Of a DNA stretch of 64,000 nt, positions 35,277-60,057 are shown one piece after another (position 1 is the first letter of the stretch; each line of letters opens with the position of its first letter). Position numbers and translations under genes: made by a program. Source of the DNA: Demequina sp. NBRC 110056 (GTDB taxonomy: Bacteria; Actinomycetota; Actinomycetes; Actinomycetales; Demequinaceae); assembly GCF_002090155.1 (NCBI RefSeq), contig NZ_BBRM01000002.1:682001-746000 (forward strand). The letters run 5' to 3'. Under the pieces are notes generated by a model. The model did no database searches and was not told where the DNA came from. It saw only the letters and a program-made list of their open reading frames with translations.

Positions 35277-36005
35277 CTAGGACGCGGTCGTGAGCTTGAG
35301 CTCGAGGGTGTCGACCCGCTGAGCCACCACGTCCGAGTGCGCGAGCTCGCGCTGGACGCGCTCGACCACCGAGTCGAGCTCGGGCTGCGTCAGCCCCGGC
35401 GCGATGCTGAGCACGATGGAGATCTCCGCGCCGGCGCCCGCGACGGCCTCGACGGCCTTGAGAGCGCTGTCGGTGGTGACGGCGTTCGCGACGGCCTCGC
35501 GCACCTCGTCGACGACGGTGCCGTCGACCACCGCGGGGCGCCACGCCTCCCCCTGGCCGATGGCCCACACCGCCGGGCGCGGGACGAGGATCGTCTCCAT
35601 GCCCGGGTTGATGACGAGGCTCGACCAGCCCTCGGCGACGGCAGCGAGCGCGGCGCGGGGCCCCTCCGCCGGGATGGGTCGGGCCTTGTCGTTCCAGGCC
35701 TTCATCGCGTCGACGTCGGTGAACACGGGCAGCGCGGCGCGGCCGTCGGGCATCTGGACCGCGACCACGCCGGTCGACGCGATCTCGTCCTTCTCGACGC
35801 CGTGCGCGCCCATGACGCGGCGCTCGCCGCTGGCCAGCACGGGAATCAGCACGCGCGCGTAGGCGAGCGCGTCGACCACGTCGGCCAGCGGTGCCTTCCC
35901 GTGGGAGTGGCGGATCAGCGCCTGGGCGAGGTGCGCATCGGCGCTCCCGTCGTCGTCCGCGAAGATCGACTCGGGAATCTCCTTGGCAGGCTCGCCGTCG
36001 CTCAT
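35277..36005 (-). CDS. SseB-family protein
   Basis: A 242-aa protein with an N-terminal SseB domain (ARVLIPVLASGE, ALPVFTDVDAMKAWNDKARP, SLVINPG) and a C-terminal segment (LKAVEAVAGAGAEISIVLSI) as in actinobacterial SseB proteins. Function unclear in this phylum. TAGCAT lies 7 nt before ATG 36005 (leaderless). It lies downstream of hisA in the same direction but a 106-bp repeat element separates them. Confidence 0.85.
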   Translation of the reverse strand: MSDGEPAKEIPESIFADDDGSADAHLAQALIRHSHGKAPLADVVDALAYARVLIPVLASGERRVMGAHGVEKDEIASTGVVAVQMPDGRAALPVFTDVDAMKAWNDKARPIPAEGPRAALAAVAEGWSSLVINPGMETILVPRPAVWAIGQGEAWRPAVVDGTVVDEVREAVANAVTTDSALKAVEAVAGAGAEISIVLSIAPGLTQPELDSVVERVQRELAHSDVVAQRVDTLELKLTTAS

Positions 36006-36051: not shown

Positions 36052-36157
36052 CGTACTCGTCAACACACACTTGGGACGCATGGTGCTCACGGGGCGCATG
36101 GGTAGTCACCGTGGCCACTCAGGTCACATCCGTCACCGCTGTGTATTGAGCGGCCCG
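36052..36157. mobile_element. 106-bp MITE-like element, copy B (degenerate)
   Basis: The right end GCTGTGTATTGAGCGGCCCG (36138-36157) matches copy A's right end at 17 of 20 positions; the left end CGTACTCGTCAACACACACT (36052-36071) pairs with it imperfectly. The length is exactly that of copy A (57024-57129), and the interiors are alignable. It occupies the space between hisA and the SseB gene. Confidence 0.7.
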
Positions 36158-47839: not shown

Positions 47840-50800
47840 CTACGCGCCCGCGAGGCAGCTCGGGCCGAACGCGGCCTTGAGGTCTCCGTAGAGCGCGCTT
47901 GAGCGGGCCACGCGGAACTCGTCGCCCAGCCTCATGGTGATCGGCTCGCCGGAGCCCGTGAGCACCATGCGCACCTCGACCGAGCCGGGATGCGAGCGCA
48001 GGATGCCCTTGATCTCCTCGACCATCGGCGGGTTCACTCGCGCGGCCGGGAGCGTGATGGCCACCGGTGAGGTGTCAACCACGTTGAGGTTGGGCACGCG
48101 CAGCTCGACCGCGGAGAACTGCAGCCCGCCGTCGCCACGCTCGCGCGCACGCACCTTGATGGTGAGCACCGCATCGTCAGCGAGGTCCCGCGCGTAGGTC
48201 TCGTAGGTGCGTCCGAAGAACGAGATCTCCGTCTCGCCCGACAGGTCCTCGAGCGTCACGATCGCGTAGGCGTTGCCGGACTTCGCGACGCGGCGGTCGA
48301 CGCGCGTCACGAGGCCCGCGAACGACACCTGGGCGCCGTCGCTCACGCCGCCGGCCGGCGTCGCGGACAGGATCTGGTGCGACGCCTCCGAACGGATCAC
48401 GTGGTCCAGTCCCGACAGCGGGTGGTCGGACACGTACAGGCCGAGCATGTCGCGCTCGAGGTTGAGCTTGGTCTTCTTGTCCCACTCCTCGAGGTGCGGC
48501 ACGTTGACGGTGACGCCGCCGCCGAGGTCCGCGTCGCCTCCGAACAGGTCGAACTGGCCCGTGGCCTCCTGGCGCTTGACGCCCACGACGGAGTCGATGG
48601 CCTGCTCATGCACCGCGTTGAGCGCGCGGCGGGTGTGTCCCAGCGAGTCGAAGGCGCCGGCCTTGATGAGCGAGTCGATGGTGCGCTTGTTGCACACCGT
48701 CGCGGGCACCTTGTCGAGGAAGTCCTGGAAGGACGTGAAGTTGCCCTTCTCCTGGCGCGTCTGGATGATCGCCTCGACCACGTTGGAGCCCACGTTGCGC
48801 ACGGCGGTCATGCCGAAGCGGATGTCGGTGCCGACGGCCGAGAACAGGTCCTTCGACTCGTTGACGTCCGGCGGCAGCACGGTGATGCCCATGCGGCGGC
48901 ACTCGGCGAGGTACAGCGCCGACTTGTCCTTGTCGGTGCCGACCGACGTGAGTAGCGCCGCCATGTACTCGGTCGGGTAGTGCGCCTTGAGGTAGGCGGT
49001 CCAGAACGACAGCACACCGTATGCGGCGGTGTGCGCCTTGTTGAACGCGTAGTCGGCGAACGGCAGCAGGGTGTCCCACAGCGCCTTGATGGCCGCGTCG
49101 GAGTAGCCGTTGGCCTTCATGCCGGCCTCGAAGGGCTCGAACTCCTTGTCGAGGATCTCCTTCTTCTTCTTGCCCATCGCGCGACGCAGCAGGTCTGCCG
49201 CTCCCAGCGTGTAGCCGGCGACGATCTGCGCGATGCGCTGCACCTGCTCCTGGTACACGATGAGGCCGTAGGTGATCCCCAGCACCTCGCGCAGCGGCTC
49301 GTCGAGCTCGGGGTGGATGGGCTCGATCGGCTGGCGGCCGTTCTTGCGCTCCGCGTAGTTGGTGTGGGAGTTCATGCCCATCGGGCCGGGCCGGTACAGC
49401 GCGAGCACCGCGGAGATGTCCTCGAAGCTGTCGGGCTTCATCTGGCGCAGCAGGGAGCGCATCGCCGTGCCGTCCAGCTGGAACACGCCCAGGGTGTCGC
49501 CGCGGCCCAGCAGGTTGAACGTCTCCTCGTCGGCCAGCTCGAGGTCCTCGAGGACCAGCGGGTCCTTGCCGTTGTCGACGATGTTGTCGAGCGCATCGTC
49601 GAGGATCGTGAGGTTCCTCAGACCCAGGAAGTCCATCTTGACCAGCCCCAGGCCCTCGGCCGTGGGGTAGTCGAACTGGGTGATGACCGCGCCGTCCTGC
49701 TCGCGGCGCATGATCGGGATGATGTCGATGAGCGGGTGGCTCGACATGATGACGCCGGCGGCGTGGACGCCCCACTGGCGCTTCAGCCCCTCGAGGCCCT
49801 GGGCGAGCTCGAACACCTGCTGCGCCTCGGGATCGGCTTCGAGCAGGGCGCGGAAGTCGCCGCCCTCGTGGTGGCGGGCGTGGGTGGAGTCGGTGATGCC
49901 GGCCAAGGGCATGTCCTTGCCCATGATCGCCTCGGGGTACGCCTTGGTGAGCTGCTCCCCCACGGCGAACGGCTTGCCCAGCACGCGGGCCGCGTCCTTG
50001 AGCGCCTGTTTGGCCTTGATGGTGCCGTAGGTCGCGATCATCGCGACCTTCTCCTCGCCGTACTTGTCCGAGACGTAGCGGATCACCTCGCCGCGCCTGC
50101 GCTCGTCGAAGTCGATGTCGAAGTCGGGCTTGGACTCGCGCTCCGGGTTGAGGAAGCGCTCGAAGTACAGCTGGTGGACGATCGGGTCGATGTCCGTGAT
50201 CTTCATCGCGTACGCGGCCATCGAGCCGGCGCCCGAGCCACGGCCGGGGCCCACGCGGATGCCGTTGTCCTTGGCCCACTGGATGAAGTCGGCGACGACG
50301 AGGAAGTATCCCGGGTAGCCCTTGCCCGCGATGACCTCGATCTCGAAGTTCGCGCGCTCCTGGACCTCGGCCGGGATCGTCTCGCCGAACCGCTCGTGCA
50401 GGCCCTTCTGGACCTCCTTCACGAACCAGGAGTGCTCGTCCTCGCCTGGAGGCACGTCGTAGACCGGCATGTAGTCGGCCTTGGTGTCGAACTCGACCTC
50501 GCACTTCTCCGCGATCTCGAGCGTGGAGTCGCACGCCTCGGGCAGCTCGCGCCATAGGTGCCGCATCTCCTCGGCGGACTTGAGGTAGTACCCATCGCCG
50601 TTGAACGCGAAGCGCTTGCCGCCCTGCTCGTAGGTGGGCTCGTTGAGGTTGGACCCCGACTGGACGCACAGCAGCGCCTCGTGGGCCACCGAGTCGTCCT
50701 TGCGCACGTAGTGCGAGTCGTTGGTCGCGACCAGCGGCGCGCCGATCTGGTGGGCGAGGCGCAGGAGGTCCTCGCGCACGCGCTTCTCGAGGTCGAGACC

Positions 50801-51382
50801 GTGGTCCATGAGCTCGACGTAGAAGTTCTCCGCGCCGAAGATGTCCTGAAACTCGCCGGCGGCCTTGAGCGCCTCGTCGTACTGACCCAGGCGCAGGCGG
50901 GTCTGCACCTCACCCGAGGGACAGCCGGTGGTCGCGATGATGCCCTTGGAGTAGCGCTGCAGGAGGTCGCGGTCCATGCGCGGCTTGTGGAAGTGACCCT
51001 CGAGCGACGCGTACGAGGACATGCGGAACAGGTTGTGCATGCCCGCCGTGGTCGAGGCCCACATCGTCATGTGGGTGTAGGCGCCGCCCGCCGAGACGTC
51101 GTCGCCCTCCTGGCCGCGCTCGCCCCAGCGGACTCGCGTCTTGTCCTGGCGAGCGGTGCCCGGCGTGAGGTACGCCTCGACGCCGACGATGGGCTTCACG
51201 CCATGTGCCTGGCCCTTCGCCCAGAAGTCGTAGGCGCCGAAGATGTAGCCGTGGTCCGTGGTCGCGAGCGCGGTCTGGCCCAGCTCCTTCGCGTGCGTGA
51301 ACAGGTCGTCCAGTCGCGCGGCACCGTCCAGCATGGAGTACTCGGTGTGCACATGAAGGTGGACGAAATCACTGCCGGGCAT
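47840..51382 (-). CDS. dnaE: DNA polymerase III alpha subunit
   Basis: The 1180-aa replicative polymerase (DnaE1 type). The N-terminal PHP domain (FVHLHVHTEYSMLDGAARLD) is followed by the C-family palm with catalytic Asp in KPDFDIDFDERRRGEVIRYV, a tandem HhH region (VCNKRTIDSLIKAGAFDSLG) and an OB fold (VSFAGLVTRVDRRVAKSGNA). Length is typical. ATG 51382 matches the family N-terminus, and TAGAAT lies 8 nt upstream. Confidence 0.95.
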   Translation of the reverse strand: MPGSDFVHLHVHTEYSMLDGAARLDDLFTHAKELGQTALATTDHGYIFGAYDFWAKGQAHGVKPIVGVEAYLTPGTARQDKTRVRWGERGQEGDDVSAGGAYTHMTMWASTTAGMHNLFRMSSYASLEGHFHKPRMDRDLLQRYSKGIIATTGCPSGEVQTRLRLGQYDEALKAAGEFQDIFGAENFYVELMDHGLDLEKRVREDLLRLAHQIGAPLVATNDSHYVRKDDSVAHEALLCVQSGSNLNEPTYEQGGKRFAFNGDGYYLKSAEEMRHLWRELPEACDSTLEIAEKCEVEFDTKADYMPVYDVPPGEDEHSWFVKEVQKGLHERFGETIPAEVQERANFEIEVIAGKGYPGYFLVVADFIQWAKDNGIRVGPGRGSGAGSMAAYAMKITDIDPIVHQLYFERFLNPERESKPDFDIDFDERRRGEVIRYVSDKYGEEKVAMIATYGTIKAKQALKDAARVLGKPFAVGEQLTKAYPEAIMGKDMPLAGITDSTHARHHEGGDFRALLEADPEAQQVFELAQGLEGLKRQWGVHAAGVIMSSHPLIDIIPIMRREQDGAVITQFDYPTAEGLGLVKMDFLGLRNLTILDDALDNIVDNGKDPLVLEDLELADEETFNLLGRGDTLGVFQLDGTAMRSLLRQMKPDSFEDISAVLALYRPGPMGMNSHTNYAERKNGRQPIEPIHPELDEPLREVLGITYGLIVYQEQVQRIAQIVAGYTLGAADLLRRAMGKKKKEILDKEFEPFEAGMKANGYSDAAIKALWDTLLPFADYAFNKAHTAAYGVLSFWTAYLKAHYPTEYMAALLTSVGTDKDKSALYLAECRRMGITVLPPDVNESKDLFSAVGTDIRFGMTAVRNVGSNVVEAIIQTRQEKGNFTSFQDFLDKVPATVCNKRTIDSLIKAGAFDSLGHTRRALNAVHEQAIDSVVGVKRQEATGQFDLFGGDADLGGGVTVNVPHLEEWDKKTKLNLERDMLGLYVSDHPLSGLDHVIRSEASHQILSATPAGGVSDGAQVSFAGLVTRVDRRVAKSGNAYAIVTLEDLSGETEISFFGRTYETYARDLADDAVLTIKVRARERGDGGLQFSAVELRVPNLNVVDTSPVAITLPAARVNPPMVEEIKGILRSHPGSVEVRMVLTGSGEPITMRLGDEFRVARSSALYGDLKAAFGPSCLAGA

Positions 51383-51557
51383 GGCACCCGATTCTAGGGC
51401 TGGCAACCGACATCGAGTCCCCTCCTCCACCAACCTCCCGACAGTTTCGAACATCCGCCCAGCAACACGCCGATGATGAGGGGCCGATGCGACCGTCGCG
51501 CCCGCGTGTCGGGCTCACGATGTTCGGAAGTGTCGGGGGAACGGTGTCGAGAGAACT

Positions 51558-54500
51558 ATGAGCAGCTCGAACCTTGGGACAATGGCCGGCGTGAGTCCCC
51601 AGTCCCCCTCGCCCGACGGCAGCAGCGCCGATGCGCGGGCTGGGTCGTCCCCCGACGCGCTCGGGCAGGGGCGACGGTCGGGCCGTCGCAGAGGGCGCGG
51701 CAACCAGGGCCAGCGCGGCAACGGCCAGGGCGAGGAGGCGCAGGGCGGCGCCGGACGTGGCGGCGACCGCCGCGGGCAAGCCCAGCGCGGGGGCGGTGGC
51801 CAGCGCGGGCGCGACCCGCATCGGCGCGTGAGCCGCGGCGAGCTCGAGGCCGCCGCCCGCACCCGCGAGGCCGTCGAGGTCCCGCCGATCACGTACCCGC
51901 CCGAGCTGCCCGTCAGCGCGAGCCGCGACGAGATCTCGCAGGCGATCCGCGACCACCAGGTGGTGATCGTCGCGGGCGAGACCGGCTCGGGCAAGACCAC
52001 GCAGCTTCCCAAGATCGTGCTCGAGCTGGGGCGCGGGCGCGCGGGGCAGATCGGCCACACGCAGCCGCGACGCATCGCCGCGCGGTCGGTGGCGGAGCGC
52101 ATCGCCGAGGAGCTCGGCACCACGCTGGGCGCGATCGTCGGCTACCAGGTGCGCTTCACCGACCAGTCGAGCGAGAAGACTCTCGTCAAGGTGATGACGG
52201 ACGGCATCCTGCTCGCGCAGATCCAGCGCGACCCCGACCTGCTCGCGTACGACACGCTCATCATCGACGAGGCGCACGAGCGCAGCCTCAACATCGACTT
52301 CCTGCTCGGCTACCTCACCAACCTGCTGCCGCGCCGGCCCGACCTCAAGATCATCATCACCTCGGCGACCATCGACTCCGAGCGCTTCGCCCGCCACTTC
52401 GCGCCCGGCGGGCCCCTGCCCCCGCTCGAGGTGGACGACCTCGAGGACCCAGCGAGCGCATCGGCCGACCCTGATGCCCCGGCCACGGCGCCCGTGATCG
52501 AGGTCACCGGCCGCACGTACCCGGTCGAGATCCGTTACCGGCCGCTCGCGGGCGAGACGCGGGGCGAGGAGAAGGACCAGGCGACGGGCATCGTCGACGC
52601 CTGCCAGGAGCTCATGCGCGAGACCACGGGCGACGTGCTCGTGTTCCTGTCCGGCGAGCGGGAGATCAGGGACGCGGCCGATGCGCTCGAGGGCTGGCTC
52701 GGTCCGCGCGCCCGGGACGCCCGCCACCCCCAGCGCGTCGAGATCCTGCCGCTGTACAGCCGACTCTCGGCCGCCGAGCAGCACCGCGTGTTCGAGCGGC
52801 ACTCGCACCGCCGGATCGTGCTGTCGACGAACGTCGCGGAGACCTCGCTGACGGTCCCCGGCATCCACTCGGTCGTGGATCCGGGAACGGCGCGCATCTC
52901 CCGGTACTCGAAGGCCACCAAGGTCCAGCGCCTGCCCATCGAGCCCATCTCGCAGGCGAGCGCCAACCAGCGCTCCGGACGCGCGGGCCGCCTCGCGGAC
53001 GGCATCGCGATCCGCCTCTACGCCGATGAAGACTTCGAGGGGCGCCCCGCCTTCACCGAGCCCGAGATCCTGCGCACGTCGCTCGCGTCGGTGCTGCTGC
53101 AGATGATCGCCGTGGGCGTGGTGTCCTCTCCCGACGACGTCGCGGCCTTCCCCTTCGTCGAGCCGCCCGACACGCGCGCCATCCGCGACGGCGTGCAGCT
53201 GCTCACCGAGCTGGGCGCGATCGCGACCGATGACGGCGGTCGCGCACGGCTCACGACGACGGGACGCTCCCTCGCGCGCCTGCCGATGGACCCGCGCCAG
53301 GCGCGCATGATCGTCGAGGCGGGGCGCCACGGCGTCGCGCGCGAGGTGGCGATCATCGCGGCCGCCCTCAGCATCCAGGATCCGCGCGAGCGGCCGGCCG
53401 AGCACCGCGAGGCCGCCGACGCGCTGCACCGACGCTTCGCTGACCCCACGTCGGACCTGCTTGCCTACCTCAACCTCTGGGAGTACCTGCGCGAGCAGCG
53501 CCGCGACCTGTCCGGCAACGCGTTCCGTCGGCTGTGCAAGAGCGAGCACCTGAACTTCCTGCGCGTGCGCGAGTGGCAGGACGTGGTGGAGCAGATCCGC
53601 ATCACCGCCAAGCCGCTGGGGCTCGCCATGCCCCGCGTTGACGCGCAGCGTTCGTCGGACGTCGCTGATAGTCAGGCGCATCGCTACGTGTGGAACGCCG
53701 ACGCCATCCACCGGTCCGTGCTCGCCGGGCTGCTGTCGCAGCTGGGCATGCAGGAGACCGGCGAGCCCAAGGCGTCGCAGTTCTCCCACCTGCGAGGGCC
53801 GCAGCGCGAGGCGGCGATGCGCCGCGCGAAGAAGCAGGCGCGCAACGAGTACATGGGCGCGCGCGGAGCGCGGTTCGCGATCTTCCCCGGCTCTCCCCTG
53901 TCCAAGAAGCCGCCTGCGTTCATCATGGCCGCGGAGCTGGTCGAGACCAGCCGTCTGTGGGCGCGCGACGTCGCCGCGGTCCAGCCCGAGTGGGCCGAGG
54001 ACCTTGCGGGAGACCTCGCCAAGCGCACGTACTCCGACCCGCACTGGTCCAAGCGCCGCGGCGCGGCCGTCGCGACCGAGAAGGTGCTGCTCTACGGCGT
54101 GCCCATCGTCGCGGACCGCACGGTGCTGTGGGGCCGCGTCCGCCCCGAGGAGGCGCGCGACCTGTTCATCCGCCACGCGCTCGTCGAGGGCGACTGGGAC
54201 ACGCACCACCGCTTCTGGAAGGACAACCAGCGGCTCATCGAGCAGGCGGAAGAGCTCGAGGCTCGCTCCCGCACGCGCGGCCTGCTCGCCGACGACCAGG
54301 CGCTGTTCGACTTCTACGACGAGCGGATCCCCGAGGACGTGGTGTCACAGCGCCACTTCGACCGCTGGTGGAAGGACGAGCGCCGCCGCTCCCCCGAGCT
54401 GCTGACGCTGTCCCTCGACACCGTCGCGCCGGAGCACCAGGACGTCGACACCTCGCAGTACCCCGAGCTGTGGCCGCAGGGCGACCTCGAGCTGCCGCTC

Positions 54501-56021
54501 ACCTACCAGTTCGAGCCGGGCACGGATGCGGACGGCGTCACCGTGCACATCCCCCTCGCGGTGCTCCCGCGGGTGGTGCCCGACGGCTTCGACTGGATGG
54601 TGCCCGGCATGAGCGCCGAGCTCGCCACCGCGACCATCCGCGCGCTGCCCAAGACCGTGCGCCGGCTGCTGGTCCCCGCGCCGGACGCGGCGCGCGACGT
54701 GGTCGCGTGGCTCGCGCGCGAGACGCCGGAGTGGGCCGACATGGCGCGCGCCGGCGACATGGCGGACTCCTATCGCGACGCGTTCACGCGCGCCGTGCGG
54801 GCAGTGCGCGGCGTCGAGATCCCGGCGGAGGCATGGGAGGGCCTCGCGGAGCGCCTCACCGCGCACCTGCGCATGACCTTCCGCGCCGAGGACGAGCGCG
54901 GCCGCACCCTCGAGGAGTCCACCGACCTCGTGCTGCTGCAGCGCTCGCTGGCACCTCAGGCTCAGACCGCGGTGAGCTCGGCGGTCGAGCGCGCCGCACG
55001 GGCCGCTTCCGGTCGCGGCCGCAGCGCCGATGCGCCCGCCGGCTCCCCCGCCGACGTCTCCTCGGGTGGCGGCCAAGACGGCACCAGCCGGGTCGATGCC
55101 GCCGCCCTCGCGGGCGCGGCCTCCGCCTCTGGTCTTGCCGAGCGCGCTGGGCTCGCCACCTGGCCGGACCTTCCGGGAGGCGCGCTGCCCGACGAGGTCA
55201 CCGGCACCGTGGGCGGCGCCACAGTCCGCGGCTATCCGTCGCTCGTCGACGAGGGCAAGGCCGCCGCGCTGCGGGTGCTCGCGTCTGCCGAGGACCGCGC
55301 CGCGGCGCACGCGGCGGGCGTCCAACGCCTGCTCCTGACGGAGTGCGCGCTGGCGCCCAAGCGCATCAGCTCGCGCTGGACCGGACGCGAGGCGCTGACC
55401 CTGGCCGCCGCGCCCTACCGCGGTACGGACGCGCTCGTCGCCGCCCTGCAGGAGACAGCCGTGCGCTCACTGACGTCCGGGCCCGACGTGTCCGCGGCCG
55501 CCGTCATGGACGCCGACGCCTACGGGCGCGCCCGCGACCACGTCCGTGCCCGGATCGAGGACGAGACGCACCGGCTCGCCGGCCTGGTCGTCGCCGCCCT
55601 CGACGCCTACCGCGACCTGGACGCTGCGCTGAGCGGTTCGCGCTCGATGGCCCTGCTCGCCGTCGTCGCCGACATCCGCGCCCAGGCTGACGCGCTCGTC
55701 GGCGACGGCTTCCTCGCCCGCACCCCCCTCGAGCGCCTGCCGCACCTGCCGCGCTACCTCAAGGCGGCTTCGGCGCGGCTCGAGAAGGCGACGGCAGACC
55801 CGAACCGTGACGCCGCGCAGATCTGGACCGTACGCGAGGTGACCGAAGAGCTCGAGGCTGCGCGCGCATCGGCCGCCCAGGGTCGTCCTGACCCCGAGCG
55901 CGCGGCGCAGCTGGACCACGCGCGCTGGATGCTCGAGGAGCTCCGGGTGTCGCTGTTCGCCCAGGGGCTCGGCACGTCCGAGCCGGTCAGCGACAAGCGC
56001 ATCCGCAAGCTGCTCGCATGA
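51558..56021 (+). CDS. hrpA: ATP-dependent RNA helicase HrpA
   Basis: A 1487-aa DEAH-box helicase. An Arg/Gly/Gln-rich N-terminal extension (about 1-95) precedes the core: GETGSGKTTQLPKIVLELG (near 139), IIDEAHERSLNIDFL, TSATIDSERFARHF, domain 2 with STNVAETSLTVPGI and QRSGRAGR, HA2 and OB segments, and a C-terminal DUF3418 region. Longer than E. coli HrpA (1300 aa), mainly by the extension and by linkers that contain iterated-motif peptides (SADAR near 23, SASAD, SADAP). ATG 51558 is the first in frame with GAGAGAAC upstream; a second ATG nine codons on is possible. Confidence 0.92.
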   Translation: MSSSNLGTMAGVSPQSPSPDGSSADARAGSSPDALGQGRRSGRRRGRGNQGQRGNGQGEEAQGGAGRGGDRRGQAQRGGGGQRGRDPHRRVSRGELEAAARTREAVEVPPITYPPELPVSASRDEISQAIRDHQVVIVAGETGSGKTTQLPKIVLELGRGRAGQIGHTQPRRIAARSVAERIAEELGTTLGAIVGYQVRFTDQSSEKTLVKVMTDGILLAQIQRDPDLLAYDTLIIDEAHERSLNIDFLLGYLTNLLPRRPDLKIIITSATIDSERFARHFAPGGPLPPLEVDDLEDPASASADPDAPATAPVIEVTGRTYPVEIRYRPLAGETRGEEKDQATGIVDACQELMRETTGDVLVFLSGEREIRDAADALEGWLGPRARDARHPQRVEILPLYSRLSAAEQHRVFERHSHRRIVLSTNVAETSLTVPGIHSVVDPGTARISRYSKATKVQRLPIEPISQASANQRSGRAGRLADGIAIRLYADEDFEGRPAFTEPEILRTSLASVLLQMIAVGVVSSPDDVAAFPFVEPPDTRAIRDGVQLLTELGAIATDDGGRARLTTTGRSLARLPMDPRQARMIVEAGRHGVAREVAIIAAALSIQDPRERPAEHREAADALHRRFADPTSDLLAYLNLWEYLREQRRDLSGNAFRRLCKSEHLNFLRVREWQDVVEQIRITAKPLGLAMPRVDAQRSSDVADSQAHRYVWNADAIHRSVLAGLLSQLGMQETGEPKASQFSHLRGPQREAAMRRAKKQARNEYMGARGARFAIFPGSPLSKKPPAFIMAAELVETSRLWARDVAAVQPEWAEDLAGDLAKRTYSDPHWSKRRGAAVATEKVLLYGVPIVADRTVLWGRVRPEEARDLFIRHALVEGDWDTHHRFWKDNQRLIEQAEELEARSRTRGLLADDQALFDFYDERIPEDVVSQRHFDRWWKDERRRSPELLTLSLDTVAPEHQDVDTSQYPELWPQGDLELPLTYQFEPGTDADGVTVHIPLAVLPRVVPDGFDWMVPGMSAELATATIRALPKTVRRLLVPAPDAARDVVAWLARETPEWADMARAGDMADSYRDAFTRAVRAVRGVEIPAEAWEGLAERLTAHLRMTFRAEDERGRTLEESTDLVLLQRSLAPQAQTAVSSAVERAARAASGRGRSADAPAGSPADVSSGGGQDGTSRVDAAALAGAASASGLAERAGLATWPDLPGGALPDEVTGTVGGATVRGYPSLVDEGKAAALRVLASAEDRAAAHAAGVQRLLLTECALAPKRISSRWTGREALTLAAAPYRGTDALVAALQETAVRSLTSGPDVSAAAVMDADAYGRARDHVRARIEDETHRLAGLVVAALDAYRDLDAALSGSRSMALLAVVADIRAQADALVGDGFLARTPLERLPHLPRYLKAASARLEKATADPNRDAAQIWTVREVTEELEAARASAAQGRPDPERAAQLDHARWMLEELRVSLFAQGLGTSEPVSDKRIRKLLA

Positions 56022-56040
56022 CGCTCGAGAGGACCCTGCC

Positions 56041-56994
56041 ATGACGTCGCCCGAGAGCACCCCCACGCCCGCCTGGCTGCTGTGGACCGACCGTGTGCTC
56101 GCCGCCGCGGCGCTCGGCGTGGTCGCGTGGGCGTGCGTGACGGCGTGGGGCGCGATCGTGCACGGCCACCCCGCGTACGCGATCCTGCTCGCGCTGACGG
56201 CCATCGGGTCCGTCCTCGTGCTCGTGCTGAGCGTGACGCGTCGCACGGGCCGTCCCGGGTGGCGCCGGGCATTGCGCGTGGGCGGAGCCGTCCTGGGCCT
56301 CGTCTGGATCGTCACCGTCGCGTGGCTGCGCCCCTTCCCCGCGATCGAGCCGGCGCTCATGGCTCTGGAGTCCGATGATGCGGTCGCGGTGACCGAGACC
56401 GCGACCCGGATCGTCTTCGAGCCCGCCGATGGCGGGGACGAGCCGGCGCTGCTGTTCCAACCAGGCGCCCGCGTCGACCCCCGCGCGTACGCCGCGCATC
56501 TGCGGCCGCTCGCCGAGGCCGGTCACCTCGTGGTGATCACCAAGCAGCCGCTCGGGATCGGCTTCCTCAACATGGGCGCCCTCGATGCCGCGCGTGAGGA
56601 CTTCCCGAGGGTGACGTCGTGGGCGGTGGGCGGGCACTCTCTGGGCGGCGTCGTCGCGTCCATGGAGGCCGATGCCAGCGACGATGCCGCGGCTCCGGCG
56701 GCCGGACTCCTACTCTTCGCGTCCTACCCGGCCGGCGACATCAGCTCGACGCTCACGGCCGCCGTGGAGTCGATCTCCGGCACCGAGGACGGGCTGTCGA
56801 CGCCCGAGGCGATCGACGAGTCCCGCGCCAACCTGCCGGCGGACGCGCACTTCACGATCATCGAGGGCGCGAGCCACGCGCAGTTCGGCGATTACGGACC
56901 CCAGCCCGGAGACGGCGTGGCGACGATCTCGGACGACGACGCGCGGGCGCAGATCACCGCGGCGGCGCTCGCGTTCCTCGACTCGCTCTCATAG
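56041..56994 (+). CDS. Alpha/beta-hydrolase membrane protein
   Basis: A 317-aa protein with three N-terminal membrane helices (about 18-38, 42-62, 75-95) and an extracytoplasmic alpha/beta-hydrolase domain. The nucleophile elbow is WAVGGHSLGGVVAS; the acid and His are probably in the C-terminal part (IIEGASHAQFGDYG). Lipase/esterase-like; substrate unknown. GAGAGGACC precedes the ATG, 19 bp after the hrpA stop, so co-transcription is possible. Confidence 0.8.
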   Translation: MTSPESTPTPAWLLWTDRVLAAAALGVVAWACVTAWGAIVHGHPAYAILLALTAIGSVLVLVLSVTRRTGRPGWRRALRVGGAVLGLVWIVTVAWLRPFPAIEPALMALESDDAVAVTETATRIVFEPADGGDEPALLFQPGARVDPRAYAAHLRPLAEAGHLVVITKQPLGIGFLNMGALDAAREDFPRVTSWAVGGHSLGGVVASMEADASDDAAAPAAGLLLFASYPAGDISSTLTAAVESISGTEDGLSTPEAIDESRANLPADAHFTIIEGASHAQFGDYGPQPGDGVATISDDDARAQITAAALAFLDSLS

Positions 56995-57023
56995 AGCTGC
57001 AAGCCCGACCACCCGGAGTCTCG

Positions 57024-57129
57024 CGTACCGCTCAACACACAGCTGGGGCTGAGGTGACGGGTGAGGTCATTGTGCTGTCCCGTGCGCCTCACCAGTCTCC
57101 TGCGTCCCCGCTGTGTGTTGAGCGGTACG
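57024..57129. mobile_element. 106-bp MITE-like element, copy A
   Basis: Perfect 20-bp terminal inverted repeats: CGTACCGCTCAACACACAGC (57024-57043) and its exact reverse complement (57110-57129). The interior continues as an imperfect inverted repeat, so the whole could fold into one hairpin. No coding capacity and no target-site duplication is evident. It lies between the convergent hydrolase and RluA-type genes and could also act as a bidirectional terminator. Confidence 0.8.
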
Positions 57130-57149
57130 AAGAGGAGCGACCTGAGGCC

Positions 57150-58067
57150 TTAGCCGCGGAGCTGCTCGAGCGCGCTCGCGAGGTCCTCGGGGTACTCCGA
57201 CGAGACCCGCACCTCGCCGCCGCGCACGGGGTGCTCGAAGGCGAGCTCGCGCGCGTGCAGCCACTGGCGGGACAGGTTCAGGCGGCGCGCGAGCGCGGGG
57301 TCGGCGCCGTAGGTCTGGTCGCCCACGAGCGGGTGGCGCATCGCGGCCATGTGCACGCGGATCTGGTGCGTGCGGCCGGTCTCGAGGTGGATCTCGAGCA
57401 GCGACGCCGCGGGGAACATCTCGAGCACCTCGTAGTGGGTGATCGATGGCCGGCCGTCCTGCACGACCGCGAACTTGTAGTCCGAGGACGGGTGGCGGCC
57501 GATGGGCGCGTCGATGGTGCCCGCCGTCGGGTCCAGGTGGCCCTGCGCGATCGCGTGGTAGACCTTCTCGACCGTCCGCTCCTTGAACGCCGCCTTGAGC
57601 GCCGAGTACGCCGGCACGGATCGCGCGACGACCATGAGGCCCGAGGTGCCCACGTCGAGGCGGTGCACGATGCCCTTGCGCTCGGCCGGTCCCGCATCGG
57701 CGACCGTGACGCCCATCGAGGCGAGTGCGCCGACGACCGTCGGTCCGGTCCACCCCGGTGACGGGTGCGCGGCGACGCCCACGGGCTTGTCGATCACGAC
57801 CAGGTCAGCGTCCTCGTAGACGATGCCGAGCCCACCGGGAAGCTCGGGCTCCGGGGCCGCCTCGCGCTCGTCGGGGATGTCCACGGCGAGGATGCCGTCG
57901 CTGACGCGATCCGACTTCCCCAGGATCCGCCCGTCGAGCATGACCGCGCCGTCGCTCAGCAACTCGGCGGCCTTGGTGCGGGACAGGCCGAGCATGCGCG
58001 CGAGCGCAGCGTCGGCGCGGTCGCCTACCACCGCATCGGGGACGGGCAGGTAGCGGGTGTCAGCCAC
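57150..58067 (-). CDS. RluA/RluD-family pseudouridine synthase
   Basis: A 305-aa enzyme. An N-terminal S4 domain ([20 protein letters not shown], about 23-42) is followed by the catalytic domain with [14 protein letters not shown] (catalytic Asp), and [15 protein letters not shown]. It modifies uridine in rRNA or tRNA. A GTG start at 58067 overlaps the lspA stop by 8 bp (GTGGCTGA), so lspA and this gene are coupled, as in many actinobacteria. RluD is the likeliest orthologue, not certain. Confidence 0.88.
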
Positions 58068-58671
58068 GGTGGTCGGCGTCGCTCGGCGAGGACGCCGCGG
58101 GAGCGTCGTCCACGACCCCGTCGGTGGGTGACGCGGGAGCGTCGCCGGCGTGCGCATCGGCCGCCTCGACGTTCGACTCAGCCACGCCGTCCTCGCTCGG
58201 CTCGGGCGCCAGGAGCGGCTTGTGCATGAAGCTCAGCAGCAGCACGGCGGCCGCGGCGCCCACGATGGCGATGTCGGCGACGTTGCCCACGAACCAGCCG
58301 TTGTAGTTGATCATGTCGACCACGTGCCCCTGGCCGAAGGACGGCTCCCGGAACAGCCGGTCGATGAGGTTGCCCACCGCGCCGCCGAGGCCGATGCCGA
58401 AGATCACGACCGCGAGCCGCGACTGCGCGCGCCGTGCGTAGTAGACGATGCCCGCCGTCACGATCAGCGCGACGATGGTGAGGATCCACGTCGTGTCGTT
58501 GCCCAGCGAGAACGCGGCCCCGGAGTTGAAGACCAGCTGGAACGACAGCAAGTCCCCCAGGACCTCGACCTGCTCGCCCGGCTCGAGGGCGGCAAGGGCC
58601 CACTGCTTGGTGATCTGATCGATCACCACCACCAGGAGGGCGACCAGCCACAGGGCTGGTCGCCAGGTCAC
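58060..58671 (-). CDS. lspA: Signal peptidase II
   Basis: A 203-aa membrane aspartyl protease that cleaves prolipoprotein signal peptides. Four helices are visible; the catalytic Asp pair is in [12 protein letters not shown] and [14 protein letters not shown]-terminal tail of about 45 residues, acidic and Ser/Ala-rich, is beyond the usual family end. GTG 58671 overlaps the preceding TGA by 4 bp. Several lipoproteins in the window are likely clients. Confidence 0.92.
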
Positions 58672-59120
58672 CGCCGCTCCTCGCGCTGCTTGCAGGTCAC
58701 GCAGTGGGTGGCACGCGGGAACGCCTGGAGGCGAGCCTTGCCGATGCCCTGGCCGCACGACTGGCAGGTGCCGTACGTGCCGGCCTTGACGCGGCGCAGC
58801 GCGTCGACGCTCTGCTCGAGCATGTCGCGCGTGTTGTTGACGATCGACATCTCCTGCTCGCGCTCGAGGGCCGTCGACCCCGCGTCTGCCTGGTCGTCGC
58901 CAGCACCCTCCGAGGTGTGGAGCAGGTCGTCGAGCTCGTGCTCGGCACCGTGGAACTCCTGCACCAGCCGCTCGACGTCAGCGTTGAGCGTCTTGACGAT
59001 CGCGCGAAGTTCGGCGACCTTCCAGGGCTCGTCCCCGTCGCGCACCGCGAGGCGCTTGGCGTCGCCGGCCTTGAGCTCGGCCGGATCGACGACCACGATC
59101 GTCACATCAGTACTGGTCAT
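58668..59120 (-). CDS. TraR/DksA-type C4 zinc-finger protein
   Basis: A 150-aa protein with a helical N-terminal part (about 30-110, partly coiled coil) and a C4 zinc finger near 119-145 (CQSCGQGI, CVTC). DksA-like proteins bind RNA polymerase through the secondary channel; that role here is inferred. GGAAGAGGG precedes the ATG. First gene of dksA-like-lspA-rluD-type. Confidence 0.85.
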   Translation of the reverse strand: MTSTDVTIVVVDPAELKAGDAKRLAVRDGDEPWKVAELRAIVKTLNADVERLVQEFHGAEHELDDLLHTSEGAGDDQADAGSTALEREQEMSIVNNTRDMLEQSVDALRRVKAGTYGTCQSCGQGIGKARLQAFPRATHCVTCKQREERR

Positions 59121-59197
59121 GCCCTCTTCCTCGAATCAGGGTAGTGACGAGAGACTAATCCCGTTTGCCCGGCATCGCAAAGTGCCACGCCAGCACC

Positions 59198-59215
59198 GCG
59201 CGCCGTACGGCGCGC
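59198..59215. terminator. Palindromic hairpin downstream of divIVA
   Basis: GCGCGCCGTACGGCGCGC is an 18-bp perfect palindrome lying 17 bp beyond the divIVA stop and about 80 bp before the DksA-like gene. A terminator for divIVA is the simplest reading; no T-run follows. Confidence 0.55.
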
Positions 59216-59232
59216 CGTCACTCGGTCTCAGC

Positions 59233-60057
59233 TCAGCGCTGCTCGTCCTCGGCGGCCGGCTGCTCGCCGAACACCTGGGCGACGTCGCTCGAGCCGGCGG
59301 GCGATGCGCCCCAGGGCGCGGCGCTCTCGGCCGAGGGCTCCTGGTCGCGCACCTGAGCCCAGGGGCTCTCGGCGGCCTTGGGGCCGTCCTCGTCGGCCGC
59401 GGCCGAAGCAGCGGACGGCGCGTCGGCGACCGAGGCGTCCTCGGCGGCCTGGCCGAAGCCGCCGTCGAAGGCGGGAGCGGCCGCAGGAGCCGCAGGCTCC
59501 TCGGACTTGGCACCGTGGTCAAGGTCACCGAGGAGGTTCTCGAGGTAGCTCTTGAGGCGAGCGCGGTAGTCACGCTCGAAGCGGCGCAGGTCGTCGATCT
59601 TGGTCTCGAGCTCGGTGCGCTCGGTCGCGAGCTGGTCCATGCGGTCGCGGGCGTCCGTCTCGGCCTGCTCGACGATCGACTCGGCCTTGACCTTCGCCTC
59701 GTCGATGAGGCGGTCGCGCTCGGACTCGCCGGCCTGCACGTACTCGTCGTGAAGCTTCTGCGCCATCGCGAGCATGCCGGTCGCGCTGGGCGGAGTGGGG
59801 TCGGTCGCGGCGGCGAGGAGGCCACCCTCGGTCGAGGGCTCGGGCTCGGGGGCCGACGGCTGCGACGGCGTGGTGGCGGTGCCAGCCTGCGCCTGGGCGA
59901 GGCGCTGCGCGAGGTCGTCGCGCTCAGCGGTGAGCGACTGGATCGTGTGCGCGACCTCGTCGAGGAAGTCGTCGACCTCGTCCTGGTCGAAGCCCTCGCG
60001 GTACTTGGTCTTCGAGAACGCCTTGTTGAGAACGTCCTCTGCCGTCAGCAGTGCCAT
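59233..60057 (-). CDS. divIVA: DivIVA/Wag31 polar-growth protein
   Basis: A 274-aa protein. The membrane-binding DivIVA N-domain (LLTAEDVLNKAFSKTKYREG, FDQDEVDDFLDEV) is followed by a Pro/Thr linker (about 55-85), a long coiled coil (90-180) and an acidic Ala/Glu-rich C-terminal tail. In actinobacteria it marks cell poles and directs peptidoglycan synthesis. ATG 60057 has AAGGTGG upstream. An upstream GGCCGG-GATA-CCGGCC hairpin (60086-60101) lies in its leader. Confidence 0.93.
   Translation of the reverse strand: MALLTAEDVLNKAFSKTKYREGFDQDEVDDFLDEVAHTIQSLTAERDDLAQRLAQAQAGTATTPSQPSAPEPEPSTEGGLLAAATDPTPPSATGMLAMAQKLHDEYVQAGESERDRLIDEAKVKAESIVEQAETDARDRMDQLATERTELETKIDDLRRFERDYRARLKSYLENLLGDLDHGAKSEEPAAPAAAPAFDGGFGQAAEDASVADAPSAASAAADEDGPKAAESPWAQVRDQEPSAESAAPWGASPAGSSDVAQVFGEQPAAEDEQR

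Follow-up and report, generated by a model that had tools for sequence, protein, structure and literature searches.

A family of 106 bp intergenic palindromes in Demequina and its association with genes for Vsr-like nucleases

The window, the 64,000 nt stretch of Demequina sp. NBRC 110056 DNA analysed here, contains two copies of a 106 bp palindromic element, both of family A. The better of the two (57024–57129) has perfect terminal inverted repeats of 20 bp (57024–57043 on the forward strand and 57110–57129 on the reverse strand), all 20 bases matching between the ends. On one side is its convergent neighbour, a gene for a 317 aa hydrolase-like protein (56041–56994, forward strand), and on the other a gene for an RluD-like pseudouridine synthase (57150–58157, reverse strand). 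The second copy (36052–36157) is a more degenerate twin of the same length in which the same 20-base end is matched at 15 positions on the left and 17 on the right, and it is flanked by an SseB-like gene (35277–36005, reverse strand). These three gene names were assigned by eye. Both copies are intergenic according to the gene calls around them, and the initial annotation, which had reported the perfect ends, the degenerate twin and the location of both copies between genes, was correct in each respect. A 101 bp palindrome with ends CCCGACAGTTTCGAACATC (51437–51537) is the same kind of element from a different family; this third element in the window (GACAGTTTCGAACATC ends) lies upstream of a large ORF at 51558. 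No strand is assigned to any of the three palindromes.

Inverted ends alone are not rare in the window (14 matches, compared with 3–10 in ten Markov-1 shuffles), and the proof that these are elements therefore rests on the family. A family profile, which was built with both window copies included, gave scores of 119 for the 57024 copy and 96 for the 36052 copy, the 99.99th percentile for the window being −60. In the genome from which the window is taken (G000; 2.94 Mb in 10 contigs), a sequence-only family model made 36 matches over both strands, corresponding to 18 dispersed sites, all 106 bp long and including 36052. The 36052 copy was not recovered by BLAST, which gave 39 matches representing 16 sites and two short chance-like matches. 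Hence, the search for further copies that had been proposed as a check bore out the original observation. When a search pattern consisting of both ends, spaced at a fixed distance, was applied to 84,980 species genomes, a scan from which records close to G000 may have been left out, the 20 stretches found were all from Demequina. BLAST matches at E≤0.001 were present in 6 of 59 genomes, G000 included, and the family model was positive in 27 of 44 Demequina genomes. In most of the model-negative genomes of the genus the best locus read has different ends, representing sister families. An exact-end pattern for the family with GACAGTTTGAACCAA ends, which is too strict, was found in 2 of the 44 genomes. 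Plasmids contained no match to the element and phages yielded one weak match to the nuclease described below. At least 11 of the 18 family-A copies in G000 share their site with another species, indicating that movement or spread is slow.

The 38 distinct copies of family A align without gaps and have conserved ends (CGTACCGCTCAACACAC). Between the ends, invariant or near-invariant columns in these 38 copies reveal a scaffold with a 9 bp period (57045–57108 in the better window copy), made up of G at element positions 22, 31, 40 and 49 (57045, 57054, 57063 and 57072) and mirrored C at positions 58, 67, 76 and 85 (57081, 57090, 57099 and 57108), and the information content of 54 copies has an autocorrelation of 0.73 at lag 9. 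Position 19 is asymmetric in an otherwise symmetric element: none of the 54 copies has C at both ends, 15 have G/G and 39 have mixed bases. A covariation test on the 54 copies counted 995 mirrored interior pairings compared with 997 ± 13.5 in shuffled columns; pairing is no higher than in shuffled columns and thus selection for intra-copy pairing, over and above the consensus, is absent. We read this absence of covariation as pointing to recognition of the element as double-stranded DNA. Recognition through an imperfect single-strand hairpin is possible, as 11 of 12 copies fold more stably than their shuffles (z −2.7 to −10.5; z 0.02 for the 36052 copy). At orthologous sites, interior identity was 0.42–0.74 in 31 of the 33 listed pairs and 0.85 and 0.98 in the other two, near or below an identity like that of third codon positions (0.70–0.82, 11 pairs). 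No claim of hypervariable interiors is made, since saturation could account for low interior identity. One element pair from G024 and G064 fits better when reversed (0.80 compared with 0.74), as do other diverged pairs by small margins, and the G024/G064 pair provides a hint, at most, that an element may invert in place.

The RluD-like and SseB-like neighbours served as anchors for reading the two window sites across 30 genomes. G000 and G032 have family A at the 57024 site, as does G016 past an extra gene; there is a different palindrome of approximately 106 bp in G024 and G064, another in G015 and one further downstream in G006. G030 and G031 have no palindrome between rluD and the hydrolase-like gene, and in most other genomes read rluD is directly followed by another gene. 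The 36052 site is occupied by family A in G000, G032 and G016 and by other palindromes in G024 and G064, and consists of a short gap only in at least G010, G014, G015, G034, G035, G036, G062 and G065. Filled and empty sites in relatives, looked for as a further check, were therefore found at both window sites. Eight further slots were examined, each in a relative without family A there; six hold another family (two of them identified by eye), one is empty and one is ambiguous. The slot comparisons for L157 and L155 in G015 gave no flank match. Thus, one intergenic slot can hold different palindrome families from species to species. Sandwich arrangements were also seen, in which two near-identical copies of one palindrome family enclose a copy of another. 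The enclosed copy is of family A at three loci in G000 (L004, L005 and L141) and A-related at L087 in G034. At two sandwich sites, a relative has family A alone.

In G015 and G024, two copies with the same ends, approximately 1.09 kb apart, bracket a single gene. The same arrangement is present in G064, as judged by spacing and by alignment to G024, and a diverged element pair surrounds the nuclease gene in G004. The product of the bracketed gene appears to be a fusion of an AbiEi-like domain, at the N terminus, and a Vsr/I-Bth0305I-like nuclease, with matches extending over approximately 250–313 aa. Pfam matches to AbiEi_4 and REase_MTES_1575 were mostly below the cut-off (AbiEi_4 below), with DUF559 just above it in one of two nuclease products; the MTES_1575 domain is named as a Vsr-type REase in the part of the earlier report drawn on here (PMC3710099). 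An AlphaFold2 model of the nuclease (mean pLDDT 86.7) matched, using Foldseek, the AbiEi antitoxin 6y8q (E 1.9e-5), the catalytic domain of I-Bth0305I (3r3p; probability 1.00, E 0.023, TM 0.71 by target length, 88 columns) and also Vsr, and a profile search of PDB sequences identified the endonuclease-like protein 3hrl (E 4.5e-5). As D244, D256 and H261 are invariant across 28 nucleases, the match to a homing-type nuclease fold is accompanied by conserved putative catalytic residues. In four related nucleases (L047, L054, L057 and L063), the E that most others have in the ExD motif is replaced by Q (VVQTDG), which may affect catalysis. L072 (G000 C6) is a giant ORF that, like the founding member of the MTES_1575 family, includes this nuclease domain.

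All 37 Demequina genomes of one survey set include 1–5 relatives of the nuclease at E≤1e-10. The nuclease genes adjoin ftsH at 22 of 30 loci in a first set and 3 of 20 in a second, with clades A, B, C and D all represented, and others adjoin a second conserved gene; they appear to be residents of a few places, as RAYTs are (PMC8266576). Flank similarity of at least 30 bits was detected at 38 of 51 Demequina nuclease loci compared with 6 of 60 control loci. In the first set, the numbers were 27 of 30 nuclease loci, 3 of 30 rluD loci and 3 of 30 sseB loci, and at 40 bits 16 nuclease loci, no rluD locus and one sseB locus. One sseB control (L217) reached 93 bits, probably because the two flanking stretches compared overlap, and was kept in the control count. 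The second set, mostly second paralogues, gave 11 of 21 at 30 bits and 7 of 21 at 40 bits. When flanks were swapped between genomes, 12 of 30 still reached 30 bits, but this is a poor control because families are shared between genomes. A strict inverted-repeat pair finder recovered 14 of the 30 nuclease loci, and 13 of the 51 loci have no matched flanks.

The palindrome ends were sorted into groups by eye, which left 13 rows without a label on a nuclease tree of 30 and 27 on one of 51. Groups A, B, C and D and the class with a 9 bp period each require a single change on the trees of 30 and 51 nucleases. Shuffled labels did as well in 0 of 500 trials for B and C on both trees and 0 of 500 for the period-9 class, in 21 of 500 (smaller tree) and 2 of 500 (larger tree) for D, and in 25 of 500 for A on the smaller tree. 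Hence, those palindrome ends that could be grouped appear to follow the nuclease clades. As near relatives inherit both clade and ends by descent, this match reflects co-inheritance and not causation. G004, G009, G010, G025 and G029 each have one dispersed period-9 copy with ends that, by eye, are those flanking their own nuclease. Among the nuclease loci of G000, other palindromes flank L070 and L075 (GACAGTTTGAACCAA ends) as well as L073 and L074, and L076 is unflanked. G000 and G032 carry many family-A solo copies, yet none of their nucleases placed on the tree (two each) belongs to the A clade, the placement covering two G000 nucleases with the other PF18741 matches of G000 outside the tree. 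The window copies are therefore orphans, or their gene is among the unplaced ones or in a gap.

Beyond Demequina, 20 nuclease loci were chosen (16 shorter ORFs picked from the PF18741 list and four from the genus-survey search), of which 9 had flank similarity of at least 30 bits, a count with no matched control; among the nine, L291 is a tandem array and L296 is not evidently palindromic. Across the order, Pfam PF18741 ranks mostly giant fusions first and picks up the small nucleases poorly. Matching repeats also flank small AbiEi-REase-like genes from further genera within the order, namely L288 (G056), L292 (G052), L295 (G127), L298 (G119) and L299 (G084); by eye, several of these repeats are palindromic.

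An occupied and an unoccupied target at the same site were found in one case. G025 has an element, the nuclease gene and a second element where G026 has one solo element of 101 bp; alignment of the two flanks is at 93 % and 86 %, and in G026 the flanks join at the element. In 5 of 18 flanked pairs, one half-element is near-identical between the two copies (0.82–0.94), with the next best at ≤0.68 and a background maximum of 0.79 over 153 pairs of G000 family-A copies, a background derived from family A from which other families may differ. The other 13 pairs lack this signature. Judging from the half-element identity, the point at which the gene unit is gained or lost may be close to the centre of the palindrome, and long-stagger cutting was considered as a possible source of the flanking duplicates.

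The explanation that we regard as probable, with modest confidence, is a partnership like REP/RAYT in which the enzyme is unrelated, resembles homing endonucleases and acts on the palindrome in double-stranded form. The association of repeat and enzyme is well supported; cleavage and mobilisation we infer from sequence comparisons. The window elements would then be solo copies of a repeat family whose cognate DNA-cutting enzyme, with a gene enclosed by a pair of its own palindromes, is or once was present in the genome. Multimers of the enzyme would bind the palindrome as double-stranded DNA along its periodic array and would cut or recombine near its centre, and repair by recombination with other copies would insert or remove the gene, allowing families to turn over in shared intergenic slots. 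Points that weigh against this explanation are the clade mismatch of the placed G000 and G032 nucleases, the slow spread, the absence of target duplications from 66 copies, and the nuclease loci and element pairs that lack matched flanks or the half-element signature. More tentatively, and with somewhat less conviction than doubt, we propose a new class of bacterial mobile repeat, in which Vsr-like nucleases with an AbiEi-type domain could maintain and spread palindromes of approximately 100 bp by double-strand cutting. The gene would itself insert into a palindrome, half of which would be duplicated, and the palindrome families would compete for shared intergenic slots and diverge together with their enzymes, both in Demequina and in other bacterial families of its order.

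The elements can be read in another way, which we consider unlikely. They may be solo-LTR-like remnants, left by recombination between the two elements of inserted full units, in which case the palindrome is a terminus and not a re-invaded target. G025 and G026 are exactly the two alleles expected, and G000 has few nuclease genes compared with 18 solos. However, the G025/G026 difference gives no direction of change, and most nuclease genes are at fixed places (the 22 of 30 by ftsH, and others by one conserved gene), so that solos elsewhere have no known full predecessor.

It is still less likely that the palindromes are host sites for regulation or chromosome organisation, two of which merely control the nuclease gene, though the constant 106 bp length and the invariant positions 9 bp apart would suit such a role. 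Placement would suit it too, as none of 56 copies from five genomes (one site, L166/L255, counted twice; genes called by a simple codon model) overlaps a predicted gene, and the neighbouring genes are convergent for 22 copies, tandem for 23 and divergent for 11, compared with 10, 36 and 10, respectively, of the gene pairs in the window. This reading is at odds with the patchy presence, the empty sites and the different families in one slot among related species, and with palindrome ends that follow nuclease clades.

A classical MITE moved by a DDE transposase encoded elsewhere would share the short length and inverted ends but is highly improbable, given that exact matches of 3–9 bp flanking 66 copies were at chance levels for five boundary choices and that the gene found with the same ends encodes a nuclease. 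At 2 bp, two boundary choices inside the conserved ends did exceed shuffles (3 compared with 0.6 ± 0.7, and 34 compared with 27.8 ± 2.3). Hence, the initial annotation of a miniature inverted-repeat element, which had recommended looking for target-site duplications and for a parent with the same ends, holds in kind (there are 18 copies, relatives have both occupied and empty sites, and a longer relative shares the ends) and not as a classical, DDE-type MITE, as no target duplication was seen in the 66 copies and the longer relative encodes a Vsr-like nuclease and not a transposase. Its other suggestion, a mobile hairpin terminator, found no support: an RNA hairpin or bidirectional terminator would fit the folding of 11 of the 12 copies and the convergent placement but is barely credible, as a scan of 50000–60000 for T-run intrinsic terminators found none, an Rfam search with the element found no match, covariation was absent from the 54 copies (which together with the Rfam result speaks against a structured RNA) and the 36052 copy folds like its shuffles.

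In the literature covered (titles and abstract openings, with no preprints and few subscription journals), palindromic repeats tied to DUF559/MTES_1575 nucleases were not described. If the partnership of palindrome and homing-endonuclease-like enzyme is real, it would be a second, unrelated enzyme with REP/RAYT-like genomic behaviour, and would suggest that resident nucleases can come to maintain populations of repeats. It would also give a likely role to the small AbiEi/Vsr-type proteins present in every one of the 37 surveyed Demequina genomes, and would make available, as a naturally occurring series, pairs of nuclease and target whose ends have diverged together.

The Demequina elements resemble parts of several known systems. 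Like MITEs they are short, non-coding and intergenic with inverted ends, but they have no target duplications and the related gene is not a transposase gene. The N-terminal fold of the enzyme is that of AbiEi antitoxins and AbiEi-like regulators (the 6y8q match) but, unlike in the antitoxins, this domain is fused to a nuclease. The catalytic fold is shared with the EDxHD homing endonuclease I-Bth0305I (the 3r3p match), for which a long, dimeric target of nearly 60 bp is given in the portion of the report cited (PMC3943268), and the presumed Demequina target is also long. However, I-Bth0305I differs from the Demequina nuclease, which has the AbiEi-like N-terminal domain and with which no intron or intein was seen, and, unlike homing endonuclease genes, the Demequina gene is flanked by whole copies of its presumed target and does not split it.

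The closest parallel is with REP/RAYT. In the sections of earlier studies drawn on here (PMC3116915, PMC8266576), REPs are palindromes of 20–50 nt, usually with GTAG, and the E. coli TnpA_REP is an HUH enzyme acting on a single strand; the manner in which the REP palindromes associated with HUH-type RAYT enzymes spread is still to be elucidated (PMC8266576). The Demequina elements are larger (approximately 88–110 bp, and 106 bp with ends CGTACCGC... in the 38 family-A copies), one class has the 9 bp period, and the enzyme, unlike TnpA_REP/RAYT, is a Vsr-like nuclease. The Y1 (HUH) transposase domain PF01797 was detected at E≤0.001 in none of 8 genomes, including G000, compared with 5 of 14 control genomes, and a RAYT was rejected as a candidate on this basis. 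The same sections (PMC3116915, PMC8266576) describe many small, dispersed extragenic palindromes and a few-copy enzyme gene that lies beside its own palindromes and behaves as a resident gene, with enzyme groups that match palindrome groups. The Demequina palindromes are likewise dispersed, and a few-copy enzyme gene is located beside its own palindromes, as in the 'REPtrons', with groups that match. Hence, though it fails the defining tests of REP/RAYT, the partnership between repeat and enzyme in Demequina works like it.
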